A stretch of DNA of 64,000 nucleotides. Source: Chloroflexota bacterium (GTDB lineage Bacteria > Chloroflexota > Anaerolineae > Anaerolineales > Villigracilaceae). Below, piece after piece: positions 1,700-63,924 of the stretch; the stretch's first letter is position 1, and each line of letters begins with the position of its first letter. The notes beneath the pieces were generated by a model that made no database searches, was not told the DNA's origin, and saw only the letters and a list, made by a program, of their open reading frames with translations. The position numbers were made by a program, and so were the translations under genes. Location: NCBI GenBank assembly GCA_016866215.1, contig VGNE01000011.1:1-64000 (forward strand). The letters are read 5' to 3'.

Positions 1700-2347
1700 A
1701 TGAAAACCCAAATTACACTTTTTAGTCTGATGCTTTTGATGGCAGTTGCACTTACTGCATGCGGAGGAACATCTACACCAGCTGTAATGATGGAAAAGGA
1801 AACGCCAACTGCTGACGTGATGATGGAAAAAGAAACACCGACCGCAGGCGCGATGATGAATGACGCTACAGCCTCGCCTGAAGCGATGATGGAAAGCCCA
1901 GCCTGGTACTCCGCGTCTCTCACCGACGCCAGCACAGGGCAGGCTTTCACGGTCAACGATTTCAAAGGCAAGGTTCTGCTGGTGGAAACCCTGGCGATGT
2001 GGTGCTCCAACTGCAAAAAACAACAGGTGCAAGTTAAAGCTTTACACACATTGCTTGGCGAACGGGACGACTTTATAAGCCTGGGTTTGGACATTGACCC
2101 GAATGAAAACGCCGCTGACCTCAAGGGATACGTGGAAAGCAACGGCTTCGACTGGCTGTATGCAGTAGCCCCGCTTGACGTTGCGCGCGAGATTTCAACG
2201 CTCTACGGCGACCAGTTCCTGAACCCGCCCTCCACCCCCATGCTGGTAATTGACCGCCACGGTGCCGCACATCCGCTGCCGTTTGGCATCAAAAGCGCGG
2301 ATGAATTGTTGCAGTTCATTCAACCCTTCCTGGACGGAGCGATGTAA
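1700..2347 (+). CDS. TlpA-like thioredoxin-fold lipoprotein
   Basis: An extracytoplasmic thiol-disulfide oxidoreductase anchored as a lipoprotein. The signal peptide ends in a lipobox with Cys21. Residues 28-70 form a low-complexity linker in which a unit of the type MMEKETPTA is repeated and then degenerates; the repeat is visible in the DNA at about 1788-1860. The redoxin domain (75-215) has W-C102-S-N-C105 and a cis-Pro region, PPSTPMLVID. The RBS is AAGGAGAT. The neighbouring ccdA would supply electrons across the membrane. The family could serve cytochrome c maturation or oxidative repair; the substrate is unknown. Confidence 0.82.
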   Translation: MKTQITLFSLMLLMAVALTACGGTSTPAVMMEKETPTADVMMEKETPTAGAMMNDATASPEAMMESPAWYSASLTDASTGQAFTVNDFKGKVLLVETLAMWCSNCKKQQVQVKALHTLLGERDDFISLGLDIDPNENAADLKGYVESNGFDWLYAVAPLDVAREISTLYGDQFLNPPSTPMLVIDRHGAAHPLPFGIKSADELLQFIQPFLDGAM

Positions 2348-2360
2348 TTAATTTTATAAG

Positions 2361-2453
2361 TAGGGGCGACCCGCCAGGTTGAAATATTCAAGATGCATAA
2401 CTGGAAGCCCATGCGCACCGGTACGCTTGATGGCCGTGAAGGGTCGCCCCTGC
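2361..2453. repeat. palindromic element between tlpA-like gene and ccdA
   Basis: 11-nt perfect arms AGGGGCGACCC (2362-2372) and GGGTCGCCCCT (2441-2451) bracket a 68-nt centre. It fills most of the 122-bp gap. The arms resemble the shorter hairpins at 33522 and 40316, so it is probably a dispersed repeat and not a dedicated terminator. Confidence 0.6.
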
Positions 2454-2469
2454 AACAGGTATTCATATT

Positions 2470-3141
2470 ATGGAAATCATCATCACATCTTTAACCATTG
2501 GACTGCTTGCCACAACCAGTCCTTGCGTATTGCCTTTATATCCCGGCTTTCTTGCCTATCTCAGCGGCGGACAGGAAGGCTTGCAGGGAAAGTTCAGCCG
2601 TTATTTTCTTGGTTTTTTTGTTTTATTCGGCGTGTTGACCATGATGCTTGCGCTCGGCGGCATTATCGCCCTGCTTTCAATATCCGTTGGAAAGGCTCTG
2701 GTTGTTGTCATCCCAATTGCAGACCTGATCATCATCGCATTTGGCGTGATGTTGATGTTCAATATCAATCCATTTAAGAAGCTCCCGCAGATTCAGGTTC
2801 CGTTTTTGTCGCATCCATTTGCGAATGCTTTTGTGTATGGATTGTTATACGGACCCATCGCATTGCCATGCTCCGGCCCATTGGTGGTGAGCATCTTTGC
2901 ATTGTCGCTCACCATTGCAGATGCCCTGGGAAAATTAAACGTATTCTTCTGGTTCGGGATGGGGTTTGGAGCTCCTTTATTGGTCTTGTCATTTCTTTCA
3001 GGCGCGGCGCAACGCTGGATCACACGCCAATTTGCGCTGCGAGCGCGCTTGATCAACCTAGTAAGTGGATTGTTATTACTGGGAGTTGGAATTTACGATT
3101 TGACGATCAACTGGCCCTTGATCAGCTCATATCTCGCATAA
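2470..3141 (+). CDS. ccdA: CcdA-like cytochrome c biogenesis / thiol reductant transporter
   Basis: A membrane protein of 223 residues with about six transmembrane helices that moves reducing equivalents from cytoplasmic thioredoxin to extracytoplasmic thiol proteins. The two family cysteines are visible in TSPCVLPLYPG (helix 1) and ALPCSGPLV (helix 4). The TlpA-like lipoprotein immediately upstream is the likely partner. The 3' end overlaps the stump of a STAS gene on the other strand, so the locus has been rearranged here. Confidence 0.88.
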   Translation: MEIIITSLTIGLLATTSPCVLPLYPGFLAYLSGGQEGLQGKFSRYFLGFFVLFGVLTMMLALGGIIALLSISVGKALVVVIPIADLIIIAFGVMLMFNINPFKKLPQIQVPFLSHPFANAFVYGLLYGPIALPCSGPLVVSIFALSLTIADALGKLNVFFWFGMGFGAPLLVLSFLSGAAQRWITRQFALRARLINLVSGLLLLGVGIYDLTINWPLISSYLA

Positions 3142-58037: not shown

Positions 58038-58607
58038 CTATTTGAGGTTTTGATACAAGAACCATGCGGATGGTCGTTCTTTTTTATCGAAGCCGTCTTT
58101 GCGGGAGAGGAGAGTCAAGCCGCGGGCTGAGATCAGGTCAATATCCGCCTCGGCAAGCCCGGGTCCGGGAAGGTGCGCCTCTGGTTTGAAGAATCCGTAC
58201 ATGAGCCAAAATCCGTTGGGAGCGAGGATGCGCGTCAGTTGAGTCAGATAATCCTGTTTGTTTTCAATGCCGTGAAAACATCCCAGGTCCAGTGCGAAGT
58301 CAAATTGACCTAAGACGTTTTTCATTCGTGTGGCGTCATCCACAAAGACTTCGGCCTGGATGCCTGCTTTTTTTAATTTTCGTTTTGCGATCTGCACGGC
58401 GCGGGATGCGAAATCAAAACCTGTTACCTGCCAGCCTGCGTTTGCAAGCGTGATGATGTTAGTGCCAGTACCGCAGCCAATATCAATGGCGCAGCTGGCT
58501 TTGTAGTGCGAGATGAATTCGTAAAGTTCGGGAGGGGTGATGCCGCTATCCCAGGGCGCTTTGCCAAAGTAGGCGAGATTGAATTTTAGGCGGCGGAGAA
58601 AGTTCAT
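58038..58607 (-). CDS. class I SAM-dependent methyltransferase
   Basis: 189 residues from ATG 58607; the frame extends upstream but that is the thioredoxin-fold gene in another frame. SAM motif I is AIDIGCGTGTNII, followed by VTGFDFASRAVQIAKRKL and FALDLGCFHGIE. It begins with ...PWDSGITPPELYEFI, common in thiopurine- or tellurite-type methyltransferases. Start and the stop of the upstream gene share ATGA, so translation is coupled. Confidence 0.85.
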   Translation of the reverse strand: MNFLRRLKFNLAYFGKAPWDSGITPPELYEFISHYKASCAIDIGCGTGTNIITLANAGWQVTGFDFASRAVQIAKRKLKKAGIQAEVFVDDATRMKNVLGQFDFALDLGCFHGIENKQDYLTQLTRILAPNGFWLMYGFFKPEAHLPGPGLAEADIDLISARGLTLLSRKDGFDKKERPSAWFLYQNLK

Positions 58608-59104
58608 TTGAGTGAGTCGCGTACTTTTTGTGGATCGAATTCTCCGACCATGCGCCATAATTCATGACCCTCGGCATCGAAGAAAATAAAGGTGGGCGTG
58701 AATTCAAAGCCATACACGGGAGCCAGTTCCATTCCGACTGAATCTTGAATGTTAAGACGGATGATATGAATTTTTTTGCCAATGCTGATTTGGTTATTGA
58801 GTTCATTTTCAAGCTCGTCAACGGCGGGCTTAATTACGGTACAGCCAATTCAATAGGGAGATTGGAACTCAAGCAGAACGGGCGTGCCGGCACCGATCAA
58901 ATCCCGTACCATTTTTGCATCTTCCATCAGCGGGGTCTGCCGCGGGTGTAAAATACTCCAGGCAGTGAAGAGTCCTATGATGATGACTCCAAAGGCCAGG
59001 TAGTCATTCCACTTGGGTTTGTTCGTGAGCAAAATTAATCCGGCGATAAAGACCAGACCGACTGCAAATATGATAAAGGAATACTGATTGGCCAACAAAT
59101 TCAC
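58604..59104 (-). CDS. thioredoxin-fold membrane protein with in-frame TGA at the redox site
   Basis: From GTG 59104 the frame gives two hydrophobic helices (about 8-24 and 35-52) and then a thioredoxin domain. After VLLEFQSPY codon 85 is TGA (58850-58852), followed without any shift by IGCTVIKPAVDELENEL, EFTPTFIFFDAEGHELW and a TGA stop at 58604-58606. TGA thus replaces the first Cys of a CxxC motif (U85-I-G-C88). Either selenocysteine or a recent nonsense mutation (one base from TGC/TGT). The downstream part is well conserved and its stop overlaps the methyltransferase start, which favours function. Confidence 0.65.
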
Positions 59105-59192: not shown

Positions 59193-59236
59193 CGGGCAAC
59201 TTGCTTCATATCCTACGTAATAGGAAGGCTATTTCC

Positions 59237-61333
59237 ATGAAAGAGTATACCACCGAGCATCTTCGCAATATCGCACTGGTTTCGCATGGAGGCGCGGGGA
59301 AGACGATGTTGGCGGAGTCATTTCTGCATGCGACCGGGGCAACCACTCGTCTCGGAAAAGTTGAGGATGGAACGACGGTTTCAGATTATGATGATGAGGA
59401 ACACCGTCGAAAGATATCCATCTATGCAAGTGTAATTCCCATTGAACATCGCGACCATAAAATAAACGTCATAGACGCGCCGGGCTTCACTGATTTTGTG
59501 GGAGAGATCATCTCTGCCCTGAGTGTTGCTGATGGCGCGGTTATTTTAGTGGATGCAGTTTCGGGTGTGGAGGTTGGAACGGAGGTCGCGTGGCGTTACG
59601 CGGACGAATTCAACCTTCCGCGCTGTTTTGTTATTAACAAAATGGACCGCGACAACGCCAACTTTGAAGAAGTCTATAACACCATTGAAGCCTTTGTAAA
59701 GGCGCATGGAAAGCGCGCCATCAAGGTACATTTGCCGATCGGTGAGAAATCGGGTTTCAAAGGTGTAGTGGATATCATTGGTATGAAAGCCTACATGGGT
59801 GACGGCAATACCATTGCCGAGATCCCAGCGGATTTACAAGAAGCAGCGGAGAAAGCGCACTTTGCAGCGGTGGAAGCGGCGGCAGAGGGCGAAGACGAGC
59901 TGATGGAAAAATATCTCGAGAACGGTTCCCTCACTGACGCGGAGATGGTGCGCGGGCTGGAGGATGTGGTCTACGCTGGAGCATTTGTCCCTGTGTTCTG
60001 TGCCGCTGGCGGACATGAAGTTGGGGCAATCGCATTGCTCAACGACATCATTGACCTGATGCCCTCGCCGTTGAATGCACCAAAACGTGTTGCGCAAGGC
60101 AACGCTGCGCGTGGCGAAGAGACATTGAAGCCGGCAGATACCGAACCCTTGGCCGCGTATGTTTGGAAGACCACCGCCGACCCGTTCGTTGGCAGGATGA
60201 GTTACTTCCGTGTCTACTCTGGTTCCATTCAGGCGGATGGACATTTGTGGAATCAAAACAAGGGCGTAGATGAACGTATTTCTGGTTTGCATTTTCAACG
60301 CGGCAAGGAAGCGATTGCGGCAAAGGTGGTTCATGCTGGCGATATTGCCGCTGTTTCCAAATTAACCGCAACTGCCACAGGGGATACATTTTGTGAGAAG
60401 GATCATCCACTCACGATCGAAAAACCGAAATTCCCTGCTGCGTTGTATCGAGTGGCAATCACCCCAAAGAGTCAGGCTGATGCGGCAAAAATCTCGCCTA
60501 CGTTGACTCGCCTGTGTGAAGAGGATATGACCCTCTTGTGGGAAAACGATCCCATTACCCATGAGACTGTTTTGAAGGGCATGGGTGACCAGCACATTGA
60601 CGTGGCGCTGCATCGCGCTCAGGCCAAGTTCCAGGTGGGTCTTGCCACGCATGAGCCGCGCGTTCCTTATCGCGAAGGAATTACACGCAAAGCCAGTGGT
60701 CAATATCGTCACAAGAAGCAAAGCGGCGGCTCAGGTCAATTCGGCGAAGTGCATCTTCGCATCGAGCCTTTGCCCACAGCCGACTTTGAGTTTGCAGACG
60801 AACTCGTCGGGATGAATTTGTCGAAGTCTTATTTGCCTCCGATTGAAAAGGGCATTAAGGCGATGATGGAACGCGGCGCCTTCGCGGGCTATCCCATGAG
60901 CAATGTCAAAGTGATCGTGTACGATGGCAAGGAGCATGAAGTGGATTCCAAGCCTGTGGCGTTTGAAATTGCAGGACGTGAAGCCTTCAAGCTTGCGGTG
61001 AATGATGCTGGCCCGGTCTTGTTTGAGCCGATCATGAACATTCGTGTCACTGTTCCGGATGCGAACATGGGCGACGTGATGAGCGATCTCAACACACGCC
61101 GCGGCCGTGTGCAGGGCACAGATTCAGAACATGGCAATACCGTCATTGTGGCGCATGTGCCCCTGGCTGAATTGTTACGCTATACAACACAACTCCGCTC
61201 CATCACCGGTGGGCGCGGCTACTTCACGATGGAGTTCGATCATTACGCTACAGTTCCAGCTCACATCACAGGTCCGATCATCGAAGCGCATAAGAAGGAA
61301 ATGGAAGCGAAGAAGGAAGAGCAGGGAATGTAG
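59237..61333 (+). CDS. elongation factor G paralogue (EF-G-like GTPase)
   Basis: 698 residues from ATG 59237 (RBS GGAAGG). Five-domain EF-G layout: G domain with SHGGAGKTMLAE instead of the usual AHIDAGKTT, DAPGFTDF, NKMDRDNANF; domain II; domain IV with GSGQFGEVHLRIEP and a C-terminal GGRGYFTMEFDHY. The altered G1 loop is typical of the EF-G2/FusA-like clade, which is not the main translocase. A normal fusA must lie elsewhere. Role could be ribosome rescue or recycling. Confidence 0.85.
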   Translation: MKEYTTEHLRNIALVSHGGAGKTMLAESFLHATGATTRLGKVEDGTTVSDYDDEEHRRKISIYASVIPIEHRDHKINVIDAPGFTDFVGEIISALSVADGAVILVDAVSGVEVGTEVAWRYADEFNLPRCFVINKMDRDNANFEEVYNTIEAFVKAHGKRAIKVHLPIGEKSGFKGVVDIIGMKAYMGDGNTIAEIPADLQEAAEKAHFAAVEAAAEGEDELMEKYLENGSLTDAEMVRGLEDVVYAGAFVPVFCAAGGHEVGAIALLNDIIDLMPSPLNAPKRVAQGNAARGEETLKPADTEPLAAYVWKTTADPFVGRMSYFRVYSGSIQADGHLWNQNKGVDERISGLHFQRGKEAIAAKVVHAGDIAAVSKLTATATGDTFCEKDHPLTIEKPKFPAALYRVAITPKSQADAAKISPTLTRLCEEDMTLLWENDPITHETVLKGMGDQHIDVALHRAQAKFQVGLATHEPRVPYREGITRKASGQYRHKKQSGGSGQFGEVHLRIEPLPTADFEFADELVGMNLSKSYLPPIEKGIKAMMERGAFAGYPMSNVKVIVYDGKEHEVDSKPVAFEIAGREAFKLAVNDAGPVLFEPIMNIRVTVPDANMGDVMSDLNTRRGRVQGTDSEHGNTVIVAHVPLAELLRYTTQLRSITGGRGYFTMEFDHYATVPAHITGPIIEAHKKEMEAKKEEQGM

Positions 61334-61403: not shown

Positions 61404-61676
61404 GTGCCTACTGTCCGTTTTCCTGCTCCCATGAAATTTTATGTTGATCACCAGAGCGAATTTTTTGTCGCTGGTTCAACGGTCAATGAATTGATCGAGA
61501 ATGTGCTTGTGAAGTATCCAACTCTCAAGCCCCATTTGTTCGATGCCGATGGCGATTTGCGTCGTCATTTTAATATTTTTGTAAATGGCATTCACCTGCG
61601 CGAGCTTGCTGGAATGGAAACACAATTGAAGGAGGATGATAAGATCATCCTAATGGCATCTGCGGCCGGGGGATAA
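61404..61676 (+). CDS. cysO: ubiquitin-like sulfur carrier protein (CysO/MoaD/ThiS fold)
   Basis: 90 residues from GTG 61404. A beta-grasp protein ending exactly in ...ILMASAAGG, the free diglycine that is adenylated and turned into a thiocarboxylate. The sequence VKYPTLKPHLFDADGDLRRHF resembles CysO-type carriers more than ThiS. With the cysteine synthase, JAMM protease and E1-like enzyme that follow, it should donate sulfide to O-phosphoserine or O-acetylserine. Symbol used by analogy. Confidence 0.85.
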   Translation: MPTVRFPAPMKFYVDHQSEFFVAGSTVNELIENVLVKYPTLKPHLFDADGDLRRHFNIFVNGIHLRELAGMETQLKEDDKIILMASAAGG

Positions 61677-61684
61677 TTTTTCTA

Positions 61685-61712
61685 TTGACAAATTCGGTAA
61701 GATGCGTAAAAT
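61685..61712 (+). promoter_or_regulatory. promoter of the cysteine synthase transcript
   Basis: TTGACA (61685-61690), 16-nt spacer, TAAAAT (61707-61712). Predicted start near 61719, so the leader ORF at 61727 would have only about 8 nt in front of it. Confidence 0.75.
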
Positions 61713-61726
61713 AGCGGACATCTATT

Positions 61727-61780
61727 ATGAAGCTTATGAAACCATTCAACTATTGCTTGTGTCTATCGCGGGGCTCGTAA
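61727..61780 (+). CDS. candidate leader peptide with Cys codons
   Basis: ATG to TAA, 17 residues: MKLMKPFNYCLCLSRGS, with two Cys codons (TGC 61754-61756, TGT 61760-61762) one codon apart. It lies between a strong promoter and the cysteine synthase gene. The last four sense codons fall inside one arm of a strong RNA pairing. Such an arrangement is that of amino-acid-responsive attenuators; cysteine leaders are known in actinobacteria. Unproven here. Confidence 0.5.
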   Translation: MKLMKPFNYCLCLSRGS

Positions 61781-61879
61781 CCACCGCCTGAGACACTCCT
61801 GCATTCAACACATCAGACGGTTGGAACGACCCCCGCTTGCAAACTTTTGCTAAGTGTGGCGTTGTTTCGCCGTCTTTTT
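61768..61879 (+). promoter_or_regulatory. candidate cysteine attenuator
   Basis: GCGGGGCTCG (61768-61777, end of the leader ORF) can pair with CGACCCCCGC (61827-61836), 9 of 10 bp. AGACGG (61815-61820) can pair with CCGTCT (61870-61875). GGCG-TTGTTT-CGCC (61858-61871) followed by GTCTTTTTG is a terminator-like hairpin. A ribosome stalled at the Cys codons would cover or free the first arm. Confidence 0.45.
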
Positions 61880-61915
61880 GTTTACCTGTTGATTACTTTT
61901 TAATTAAGGACGATT

Positions 61916-62959
61916 ATGACTTTACTGGATTTTAGACTAACTGATACAAATGCTATTCCTCTGGATGGACTCATATCTCATGTAGGGGATACACCTCTTC
62001 TTCCGCTTCGCAGCGTGACCCTTCGACACGCTCAGGGCGGCGCCTTGAAGCTGTCTCCGCGTGTAAAGGTTTTTATCAAGGCTGAATGGTTTAACCCGGG
62101 CGGCTCGGTGAAAGACCGCCCCGCGTTGAACATTATTCAGAATGCGCTCATCAATGGTGATTTGCTCCCATCGCCGTCCTTCGCGAAGCATCCCTCTGGG
62201 ACAGCGGCGGGGACGCTGCCAAGAGCGCGCTATAAACGTTTGCTGGATTCCACTTCTGGCAACATGGGAATTTCATACGCCACCTTTGGCGCGGCATTAG
62301 GGATTCCTGTCACATTTGCGATTCCTGCCAGCGCCAGCCCGGAGCGTTTGACTCTCTTGCGTGCATTGGGTGCGGAAGTTGTTCTCACTAATCCATCTGA
62401 AGGTTCTGATGGCGCGATATTGAAAGCCCGTGAAATGGTGGAGAAAACCCCGGATCGGTATTGGTACGCCAATCAATACAACAATCCTGCAAACTGGCAG
62501 GCGCATTATTTATCCACCGGGCCCGAGATCCTTGCTCAGACGAATGGACAGGTGACTCATTTCATCGCGGGGCTTGGCACCTCAGGCACTTTGATGGGCA
62601 CAGGGAAATATCTACGTGAGCATTTGCCAAATGTAAAAATTTTGGCTTTCCAACCTGACGCACCCTTCCATGGACTCGAGGGCCTCAAGCACATGCCTAG
62701 TGCGATCAAGCCTGGGATTTATGATGAGTCATTGGCGGGCGAGCCTCTTGCAGTAAAGACCGAAGCGGCGTACGCGATGGTAAGTCGCCTGGCGCGGGAG
62801 GAAGGTCTCTTCGTTGGCATCTCCTCCGGCGCGGCGGCTGTCGCGGCTTTACAGGTCGCAAGTCAATTGGAGGAGGGAGTCATCGTTACGATCTTTCCTG
62901 ACGCGGGCTATAAATATCTGAGTGACAAATCTCTTTGGGAGACAGACAATGGACGATAG
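61916..62959 (+). CDS. cysM: cysteine synthase family PLP enzyme (CysM-like)
   Basis: 347 residues. GDTPLLPL, the PLP-lysine motif NPGGSVKDRPAL, STSGNMGIS (phosphate and substrate loop), GLGTSGTLMGTGKYL and SSGAAAVAAL. In a cluster with a thiocarboxylate carrier and JAMM protease it is likely to make cysteine on the carrier protein, as CysM does in mycobacteria. Two in-frame insertions, VTLRHAQGGALKLSP and SFAKHPSGTAAGTLPRARYK, are encoded by repeats and lengthen it by about 30 residues. Confidence 0.88.
   Translation: MTLLDFRLTDTNAIPLDGLISHVGDTPLLPLRSVTLRHAQGGALKLSPRVKVFIKAEWFNPGGSVKDRPALNIIQNALINGDLLPSPSFAKHPSGTAAGTLPRARYKRLLDSTSGNMGISYATFGAALGIPVTFAIPASASPERLTLLRALGAEVVLTNPSEGSDGAILKAREMVEKTPDRYWYANQYNNPANWQAHYLSTGPEILAQTNGQVTHFIAGLGTSGTLMGTGKYLREHLPNVKILAFQPDAPFHGLEGLKHMPSAIKPGIYDESLAGEPLAVKTEAAYAMVSRLAREEGLFVGISSGAAAVAALQVASQLEEGVIVTIFPDAGYKYLSDKSLWETDNGR
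62020..62048. repeat. CCTTCGACACGCTCAGGGCGG repeat in cysM
   Basis: The plus strand has CCTTCGACACGCTCAGGGC in frame between two conserved strands of the enzyme. Same core as at 21379 and, inverted, near 27900. A second insertion lies at about 62165-62225 but shares only short GC-rich words with it. Confidence 0.6.
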
Positions 62960-63019
62960 ACGATTGACCATGCTTATCGTCCATTATCTGTTGTCCATTG
63001 TCAATGCGAAAGGTTAATC

Positions 63020-63433
63020 ATGGCGCTAAAAATTTCCGAAGTTCTTCTTGAACAAATTCATGCCAATGGCGAACATGCCTATCCCGAAGAAAGCGCTGGT
63101 TTTCTCATTGGCGGCGAAGGCAAAGTTGAAGAAATATTCCCCCTGCCAAATGCGCGTGAAGATTCAGCGCGGCATAACCGTTATCTGATCACGCCCGAAG
63201 ATTATCTCAAAGCCGAAGTAACAGCGGACAAGCTCGGGCTGAGTCTGATCGGCGTCTTTCATTCGCATCCAAACCATCCGAATCGCCCGTCCGAATTTGA
63301 CCGCGATTGGGCGCAGCCATTTTTCTCCTATATCATCACGAGTGTGAATGCAGGCAAGGCAATCGAAAGCCGCTCATGGAGATTGCTGGAAGATCGTTCG
63401 AAATTTGAAGAGGAAGAAATAAAAATTTTATAA
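63020..63433 (+). CDS. JAMM/MPN metalloprotease (Mec-like)
   Basis: 137 residues. The zinc site is complete: Glu in EESAGFLIGG and H-S-H-P-x7-S-x2-D in FHSHPNHPNRPSEFDRDW. In Mycobacterium the related Mec enzyme frees cysteine from CysO-cysteine by cutting after the diglycine; other members trim tails from sulfur carriers. The gap before it (62960-63019) has words GACAATGGACGATAGACGAT and GTCCATTATCTGTTGTCCAT. Confidence 0.88.
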   Translation: MALKISEVLLEQIHANGEHAYPEESAGFLIGGEGKVEEIFPLPNAREDSARHNRYLITPEDYLKAEVTADKLGLSLIGVFHSHPNHPNRPSEFDRDWAQPFFSYIITSVNAGKAIESRSWRLLEDRSKFEEEEIKIL

Positions 63434-63528
63434 TCACTCTGGTGGTCGCGTATCGAGATCACAGGGTATCATAATTACTTTGAATAACATATGATAGAAA
63501 ACATAAAAGGAAAAGAGTAGAATAAATT

Positions 63529-63924
63529 ATGACAACTTTGAAGATCCCCACACCCCTGCGCGCCTACACCAGCGGACAAAGCGAAGTGAATGTGGCAGGC
63601 GTAAAAATTTCAGAAGCTTTAACCGACCTGGTTGCCCAGTATCCCGCGCTCAAACCGCACCTATTCAACGATAACGGCGGCTTGCGTCCGTTTGTGAATC
63701 TATTTGTCGGCGAGCATAACATCAAAGACCTGCAAGGCGTGGAGACGCCCATCAAGGCTGGCGATAGGATTATGTTGATCCCATCTATTGCGGGTGGAAA
63801 GCCATGTCGTTGCGAGGAGCGCTCTTGTTCTTTGCGACGAAGCAATCTCCATGTCACGAGGAGATTGCTTCGTCGAGCTAAAGCCCTCCTCGCAAAGACA
63901 TATGAAATTGGGAGGAATCCATGA
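63529..63924 (+). CDS. second sulfur-carrier protein with a 41-residue tail after GG
   Basis: 131 residues. Residues 1-90 are a beta-grasp carrier like the one at 61404-61676 (QYPALKPHLFNDNGGLRPF; ends IMLIPSIAGG at 89-90). The frame does not stop there but continues through a palindromic repeat for 41 residues (KPCRCEERSCSLRRSNLHV onwards, basic and Cys-rich). Unless the tail is removed, the carrier cannot be adenylated. A JAMM protease is encoded just upstream. The stop overlaps the next start (ATGA). Confidence 0.85.
   Translation: MTTLKIPTPLRAYTSGQSEVNVAGVKISEALTDLVAQYPALKPHLFNDNGGLRPFVNLFVGEHNIKDLQGVETPIKAGDRIMLIPSIAGGKPCRCEERSCSLRRSNLHVTRRLLRRAKALLAKTYEIGRNP
63805..63900. repeat. palindromic repeat forming the 3' end of the sulfur-carrier gene
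   Basis: Inner arms CGACGAAGCAATCTCC (63835-63850) and GGAGATTGCTTCGTCG (63860-63875), 16 bp perfect, loop 9 nt; outer arms TGTCGTTGCGAGGA and TCCTCGCAAAGACA nearly complementary. Related to the intergenic copy at 19661-19768. Confidence 0.82.

Follow-up and report, generated by a model that had tools for sequence, protein, structure and literature searches.

An in-frame TGA and a covarying stem-loop mark a predicted membrane-anchored thioredoxin-like selenoprotein family in Chloroflexota

Results and Discussion

Organization of the locus

The window analyzed here is a 64,000-nucleotide stretch of DNA from a Chloroflexota bacterium, the features of which are listed in Table 1. On the minus strand, a reading frame extends from GTG 59104 to a terminal TGA at 58604-58606 and is interrupted only once, by a TGA at 58850-58852, after which it stays open for 81 codons (...QSPY-U-IGC-TVIKP...FTPTF...SLK), exactly as described in a first-pass annotation made from the DNA sequence. 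Aligned homologs begin at or near the same place. That annotation regarded the gene as a thioredoxin-fold gene with TGA at the first position of its CxxC motif, and Pfam agrees: the read-through protein exceeds the gathering scores of both Thioredoxin_2 (PF13098; 37 bits, cut-off 27, E=4.5e-9) and Thioredoxin (PF00085; 33.1 bits, cut-off 23.5, E=6e-8). Among 29 family members, PF00085 is matched at E<=0.001 by all 29 and PF13098 by 28. The invariant Pro137 is presumably the cis-Pro position of the thioredoxin fold.

Table 1. Features of the selenoprotein locus (positions in the window)
Feature	Position	Strand	Remarks
Predicted selenoprotein CDS	58607..59104	-	166 residues with TGA as Sec; GTG start
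Predicted transmembrane helix 1, residues 7-26	59027..59086	-	AlphaFold2 helix; almost no acidic residues in 141 rows
Predicted transmembrane helix 2, residues 32-52	58949..59011	-	AlphaFold2 helix; almost no acidic residues in 141 rows
Putative Sec85 codon TGA, first position of UxxC	58850..58852	-	TGA in 125/162 rows, TGC/TGT in 37/162
Cys88 codon TGT, second Cys of UxxC	58841..58843	-	Cys in 157/162 rows, Ser in 5/162
Putative SECIS stem-loop	58811..58831	-	Arms 58823-58831 and 58811-58819; triloop GUU 58820-58822; from covariation and folding
Pro137 codon	58694..58696	-	Invariant in 29-row and 61-row alignments
Downstream methyltransferase	58038..58607	-	Methyltransf_25, E=6.5e-18; ATG overlaps selenoprotein stop
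EF-G-like protein, locus marker	59201..61333	+	Divergent upstream neighbor; homolog upstream and divergent at 98/126 other loci

The terminal TGA shares bases with the ATG of the methyltransferase gene (ATGA, 58604-58607), an overlap that had already been pointed out and that holds. The same ATGA is found at the stop in 52 of 110 selenocysteine (Sec) rows and 9 of 31 Cys rows, and given this overlap, translation of the methyltransferase may be coupled to Sec insertion upstream. Neighborhoods were compared across 126 loci other than the window's own, of which at least 72 have a methyltransferase homolog downstream, with some contigs ending early. Across these loci the conserved neighbors (EF-G-like protein, metalloenzyme and methyltransferase) recur, with no redox partner among them. 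Further along the window (61404-63924, plus strand), a ThiS-like gene, a PLP-dependent enzyme gene, a JAB-domain gene and a second ThiS-like gene lie in a row that, in our reading, resembles the CysO-CysM-Mec cysteine pathway.

Protein fold and membrane placement

An AlphaFold2 model built with 61 sequences (pLDDT 88.5, pTM 0.66) shows two N-terminal helices followed by a thioredoxin domain. The top PDB matches found by Foldseek are thioredoxins, with E-values from 2.2e-8; the 50 matches listed are either thioredoxins or, by title, complexes and other entries, in which we take the matching chain to be a thioredoxin or thioredoxin fusion. Canonical thioredoxin is soluble and has no transmembrane helix, unlike the protein described here with its two N-terminal hydrophobic helices, and the window protein scores 35.1 bits against the canonical thioredoxin equivalog model TIGR01068, for which the cut-off is 96.8.

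If both helices cross the membrane, the charged residues flanking them point to an orientation. In 141 rows, the loop between the helices contains on average 1.91 K+R and 0.94 D+E per row, compared with 0.21 and 0.30, respectively, before helix 1 and 1.60 and 1.63 after helix 2. Because the net positive charge sits in the inter-helix loop, a topology with both protein ends outside is favored, and on these charge counts the thioredoxin domain is probably extracytoplasmic. ResA, CcmG and TlpA are membrane-anchored thiol-disulfide oxidoreductases that have a thioredoxin domain on the outer face, and the window protein would work alike if it is extracytoplasmic, differing from them in its two helices and in Sec. 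A domain that instead faces the cytoplasm, is reduced by thioredoxin reductase and acts near the membrane would fit the fact that ordinary thioredoxins are the top hits by both structure and sequence and that DsbE-type models remain far below cut-off (DsbE/CcmG model TIGR00385, 13.1 bits, cut-off 123.15); set against the charge of the inter-helix loop, we consider this placement of the selenoprotein rather unlikely.

The source genome encodes DsbD_TM (CcdA-like) proteins that score above cut-off, one of them within the window, and a CcdA/DsbD_TM protein is a candidate electron donor for an extracytoplasmic thioredoxin domain. The gene in the window adjoins, at 1700-3141 on the plus strand, one for a Redoxin-domain protein with a WCSNC motif; this pair could possibly constitute an extracytoplasmic reducing pathway.

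The TGA codon is conserved and alternates only with cysteine codons

We collected homologs in several ways and read the codon at the site. A search of the order matched 272 of 301 genomes at E<=0.001, many of the matches being other thioredoxins. The order set consists of the best 90 matches, in 89 genomes and including the window's own gene, with weaker matches, some of them fragments with other stops, set aside; it contains 74 TGA, 14 TGC and 2 TGT codons. A second scan, of named genome contigs, used two peptide patterns free of the site itself (PVLLEFQSP and TPTFIFFD). The best 80 of its 96 relatives carry 58 TGA and 22 Cys codons; 41 of these 80 repeat earlier rows, and the 39 new ones comprise 26 TGA and 13 Cys. 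Nearly all of the named relatives are metagenome-assembled genomes (MAGs), and by title 78 of the best 80 are Anaerolineales, Anaerolineae or other Chloroflexota and two are Akkermansia. The latter two contigs (L187 and L188), whose titles name Akkermansia muciniphila, have identical copies of a Cys-form member, which falls among the Chloroflexota rows, and are perhaps mislabelled MAGs.

A search at the level of the phylum, with E<=1e-15 as the limit, gave matches in 62 of 400 genomes and found TGA forms outside the order too, such that the family is spread across Chloroflexota and is far from universal in the phylum. Twelve phylum loci contributed 10 TGA and 2 Cys rows, and 20 further phylum regions, once three WCGxC thioredoxins had been removed, contributed 15 TGA and 6 Cys rows. 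To find the site in each row, we looked for [CU]xxC close to where it should lie, with no failures among the first 90 rows, the 80-row scan and the 12 phylum loci; five rows that failed this pattern in the later phylum set were read separately and are UxxS.

In total, TGA occupies the site in 125 of 162 rows and TGC or TGT in the remaining 37, with no other codon seen; exact repeats were removed between two of the collections only, so that a few identical rows remain in this count (for example, L028/L029 and L187/L188). With every row that lacks TGA having a Cys codon, the TGA/Cys pairing is far beyond chance. Aligning homologs at this codon had been proposed as a check, in the expectation of Cys or TGA, and this is the outcome. 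Decay of the frame after the TGA in relatives had been named as grounds for abandoning the idea, and the opposite is seen: pairwise identity within a set of 110 Sec rows averages 0.51 for residues 54-84, before the site, and 0.50 for residues 89-165, after it, indicating similar protein constraint on both sides. A base-call error at the TGA is implausible given that the same TGA is present in many other assemblies. Furthermore, TGA is the terminal stop in 67 of the 110 Sec-form genes, and the genetic code is therefore not reassigned.

A covarying stem-loop downstream of the TGA

Sec-form genes share a core, CCC-GUC-GUN-GAC-GGG or a variant of it, that lies 24-38 nt downstream of the first base of the UGA and in which GUC/GAC alternates with AUC/GAU and CCC/GGG with CCU/AGG, along with a few CCG/CGG. 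In the window, the loop of this element is 27 nt after the UGA and the stem contains two C.A mismatches. The first-pass annotation had instead drawn attention to a short GGCT/AGCC hairpin immediately after the TGA (58827-58846), while finding no convincing bacterial SECIS. We reject that hairpin as the SECIS since it is not the conserved element; the stem-loop that is conserved lies further downstream, at 58811-58831.

Across 74 Sec sequences (73 distinct), standard pairs fill 88.7% of the cells of an 8-bp stem (shuffles, 82.4%), changes on both sides of the stem are seen in 52 cells (shuffles, 20.1 +/- 3.1), and the covariation score is 0.249 (shuffles, 0.136). None of 500 shuffles, which ignore relatedness, reached the observed value for any of the three measures. 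Three stem pairs show a double change, a number that does not exceed shuffles (475 of 500), and RNAalifold returned no consensus structure for all 74 sequences. Sliding the 3' arm by 1-3 columns leaves at most 44.7% of cells paired, and the 16 Cys-form sequences are 46.1% paired, which is within their shuffles. The stem was picked by eye on the same 74 sequences, and the covariation test consequently leans its way; the rows added later are a fairer test, and in these, Sec rows have 85.9% (26 new rows) and 90.0% (10 phylum rows) of their core cells paired, versus 41.0% (13 new rows) and 66.7% (2 phylum rows) for Cys rows.

Over the full collection the contrast between the two forms is sharp. 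At least four of the six core pairs are present in all 125 Sec rows but only 4 of 37 Cys rows, the other 33 having three or fewer, and the central pair is part of the minimum-energy fold of 33 nt in 122 of 125 Sec rows versus 1 of 37 Cys rows. The loop begins with GU (GU-N) in 125 of 125 Sec rows. In 109 of 110 Sec rows, C is the third base of the Val, Ile or Ala codon in the 5' arm; elsewhere in Sec-form genes, GTC accounts for 487 of 1392 Val codons.

A published model of the bacterial SECIS, as given in the accessible text of PMC13188914, has an apical loop of 3-9 nt with G within the first two positions, a stem of 4-16 bp, a distance of 16-37 nt from the UGA and a minimum free energy of at most -7.5 kcal/mol, and the same source states that some known elements break the model. 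The spacing of 27 nt, the triloop and its leading G fit this shape, and 96 of 125 Sec rows reach the energy limit over 33 nt. The window's own hairpin falls short of it, at -6.2 kcal/mol over 33 nt and -6.6 kcal/mol over 45 nt (z 0.03). Covariation and folding thus support the stem as a property of the family, and the copy in the window misses the limit by its own energy.

Probable exchange of selenocysteine and cysteine

Sec is the commoner form of the family in Chloroflexota and is probably old. The trees were built by a quick method and many of their forks are weak, making all counts of changes rough: a 141-row tree needs 15 Sec/Cys changes, only 6 of them forced by well-supported branches, and the ingroup of a 162-row tree needs 16. 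For rooting, we used the three WCGxC-type thioredoxins, which have Cys, as an outgroup, and included the diverged Cys rows L239 and L243 in the 162-row analysis; an earlier tree had left out all five.

The reverse history, in which Cys ancestors acquired Sec on many occasions and Sec is not an old state lost again and again, is the trend described for thiol-based oxidoreductase families in the accessible text of PMC1794560 and PMC13188914. Parsimony with the Cys outgroup also makes a Cys root one step cheaper, at 17 changes compared with 18 for a Sec root (17 Sec to Cys and 1 Cys to Sec). However, even that cheapest Cys-root solution comprises 15 Sec-to-Cys and 2 Cys-to-Sec changes, and one-way scenarios over the 162 rows need 41 events if only gains are allowed versus 19 if only losses are. 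Sec predominates on both of the deepest ingroup branches (115 of 151 and 10 of 11), and one Cys gene, L059, keeps all six core SECIS pairs. Repeated gain is therefore improbable in our judgment, although the branch support behind these counts is weak. If an old Sec with approximately 15 Cys replacements is true, the family runs counter to the trend described for thiol-oxidoreductase selenoproteins.

In the five UxxS rows from the phylum, the second Cys has become Ser, the TGA is kept and CCC...GGG are still opposed. These are found at L228, L231, L235, L237 and L240; in two genomes, at L228 (1501-1980 and 2255-2737, plus strand) and L231 (two copies, minus strand), a UxxC copy and a UxxS copy are in tandem. 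Retention of Sec in UxxS may point to selenium-only chemistry.

Selenocysteine machinery and interpretation

The source genome (3.74 Mb, 128 contigs, 97% complete) contains selA (560 bits, cut-off 267.9), selB (354 bits, cut-off 242.25), selD (346 bits, cut-off 125) and a tRNA-Sec (66.4 bits, gathering score 47) that ARAGORN likewise calls tRNA-SeC with anticodon tca. A search of the genome for these four genes had been suggested and finds them all. The lack of sel genes in the window, which had been counted against Sec, is correct for the window itself, and it loses its weight with all of them elsewhere in the same genome. Two of the genome's other genes carry an in-frame TGA of their own: selD (...STCAGUASKL...) and the gene for formate dehydrogenase alpha at C23:43882-45882 (L225; ...ARLUHSSTVAG..., UHSS). 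Like the seleno-thioredoxin, FdhA and SelD are Sec-type genes of this genome; they differ from it in having unrelated folds and functions.

In a survey of 80 genomes that left out 9 Sec-form genomes, selA passed the cut-off in 63 of 64 Sec-form genomes, compared with 12 of the 16 that have the Cys form (Fisher p=0.005). The Sec-form exception, G002, has only a 27-bit piece of selA at a contig edge. Most Cys-form genomes nonetheless keep selA; the four without it fall outside the window's family, and as three of them are only 63-86% complete, absence is not proven there. A companion survey with the same omissions, covering one selenoprotein family, detected TGA-bearing formate dehydrogenase alpha (model, E<=1e-60; the place of the TGA checked in the source genome only) in 43 of 64 Sec-form genomes, among which G262 also has a TAA and G189 is a contig-edge piece. 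Sixteen of the 21 genomes without it are at least 90% complete, and in these 21 the Sec system may be kept by another selenoprotein.

Taken with the TGA/Cys pairing, the conserved frame and the covarying stem-loop, the machinery supports the original proposal of a selenoprotein candidate, and the in-frame TGA at 58850-58852 is, judged from sequence, almost certainly a Sec codon. In the mechanism that we propose, SelB with Sec-tRNA-Sec would decode the in-frame UGA as Sec, directed by the stem-loop about 21-41 nt downstream. Two transmembrane helices would anchor the product, its thioredoxin domain most likely facing outward from the membrane, and the Sec85-Cys88 pair would exchange electrons with disulfides or other oxidized substrates via a selenenylsulfide, a redox direction and substrate that we infer, as we do any function beyond thiol/selenol oxidoreductase. 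Several lineages would later have swapped Sec for Cys and thereafter been without the stem-loop. We assign this explanation as a whole, including a Sec that is probably old, a probability of roughly 93%.

Two rival explanations have next to nothing left to recommend them. A pseudogene or sequencing error, in which mutation or misreading turned a Cys codon into TGA and the product ends early, would take advantage of TGA being one base from TGC or TGT, of the 37 Cys rows among 162 and of a window hairpin that is unremarkable by energy, but for the family as a whole it is refuted by conservation, with TGA in 125 rows, a frame as conserved after the TGA as before it, and a covarying stem limited to TGA rows. 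Reading of TGA as a standard amino acid, through a reassigned code or nonspecific read-through, is equally far-fetched: any such code would leave the frame open, yet TGA terminates 67 of 110 Sec-form genes, Cys codons are the sole alternative at the site, and both Sec machinery and SECIS are present.

Returning to the Sec reading, a broader history can be proposed that we regard as only slightly better than an even bet. The membrane thioredoxin of Chloroflexota would have contained Sec since a deep ancestor and kept it in most lineages that hold the gene, with approximately 15 Sec-to-Cys replacements followed by SECIS decay and with the UxxS forms hinting at chemistry by selenium only; in about one-third of the Sec-form genomes examined, this protein, rather than formate dehydrogenase, would be a main keeper of the Sec system.

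Relation to known selenoproteins

Sec-containing thioredoxin (PF00085, UxxC) and thiol:disulfide interchange selenoprotein (PF13098, UxxC) are known kinds, listed in Table 1 of PMC13188914. The present family shares with them the thioredoxin fold, Sec at the first CxxC position and a bacterial SECIS, and by description is set apart by two N-terminal transmembrane helices and by being mostly Sec in Chloroflexota and mostly at one chromosomal locus. TsoB, a rhodanese/DsbD fusion-like selenoprotein (NF045694), matches 19 of the 29 family members at E<=0.01; against the window protein it reaches 12.1 bits with a cut-off of 805, over the thioredoxin part only. SaoT (NF040730) and the HUIPC type (NF047660) gave no match to the window protein at E<=0.1, nor are they among the families listed for the 29 members at E<=0.01.

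In the full-text literature, a scope that leaves out preprints, supplements and most subscription papers, we recognized no description of this family. The accessible portions of PMC13188914, PMC9312934, PMC1088965, PMC1794560, PMC5322559, PMC12013277, PMC5736913 and PMC4959059 contain no Chloroflexota thioredoxin-like selenoprotein, and a term search of the available text of PMC5029168 found nothing. A 2006 study (PMC1794560), in its accessible part, reports three selenoproteins in Chloroflexi and counts Sec-to-Cys events in four families, with none for thioredoxin; a 2026 review (PMC13188914), likewise seen in its accessible part, describes Sec-to-Cys replacement as rare and occurring mainly in FdhA and SelD. 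UxxC seleno-thioredoxins as such are known, and what appears to be new, on the strength of predictions from sequence, is one that is membrane-anchored, mostly Sec and Chloroflexota-wide.

Within one thioredoxin-like family, nature has provided a set of Sec/Cys replacements in which SECIS decay can be seen, and the reasons for retaining or losing Sec can thus be tested directly. The family also illustrates how easily one can overlook a redox protein that is probably located at the cell surface, here in a large and mostly uncultured group, because the standard code shows its genes as truncated. According to the accessible text of PMC4959059, an Anaerolinea isolate has a Sec elongation factor while lacking any dehydrogenase annotated as containing Sec, an oddity that the present family could explain.
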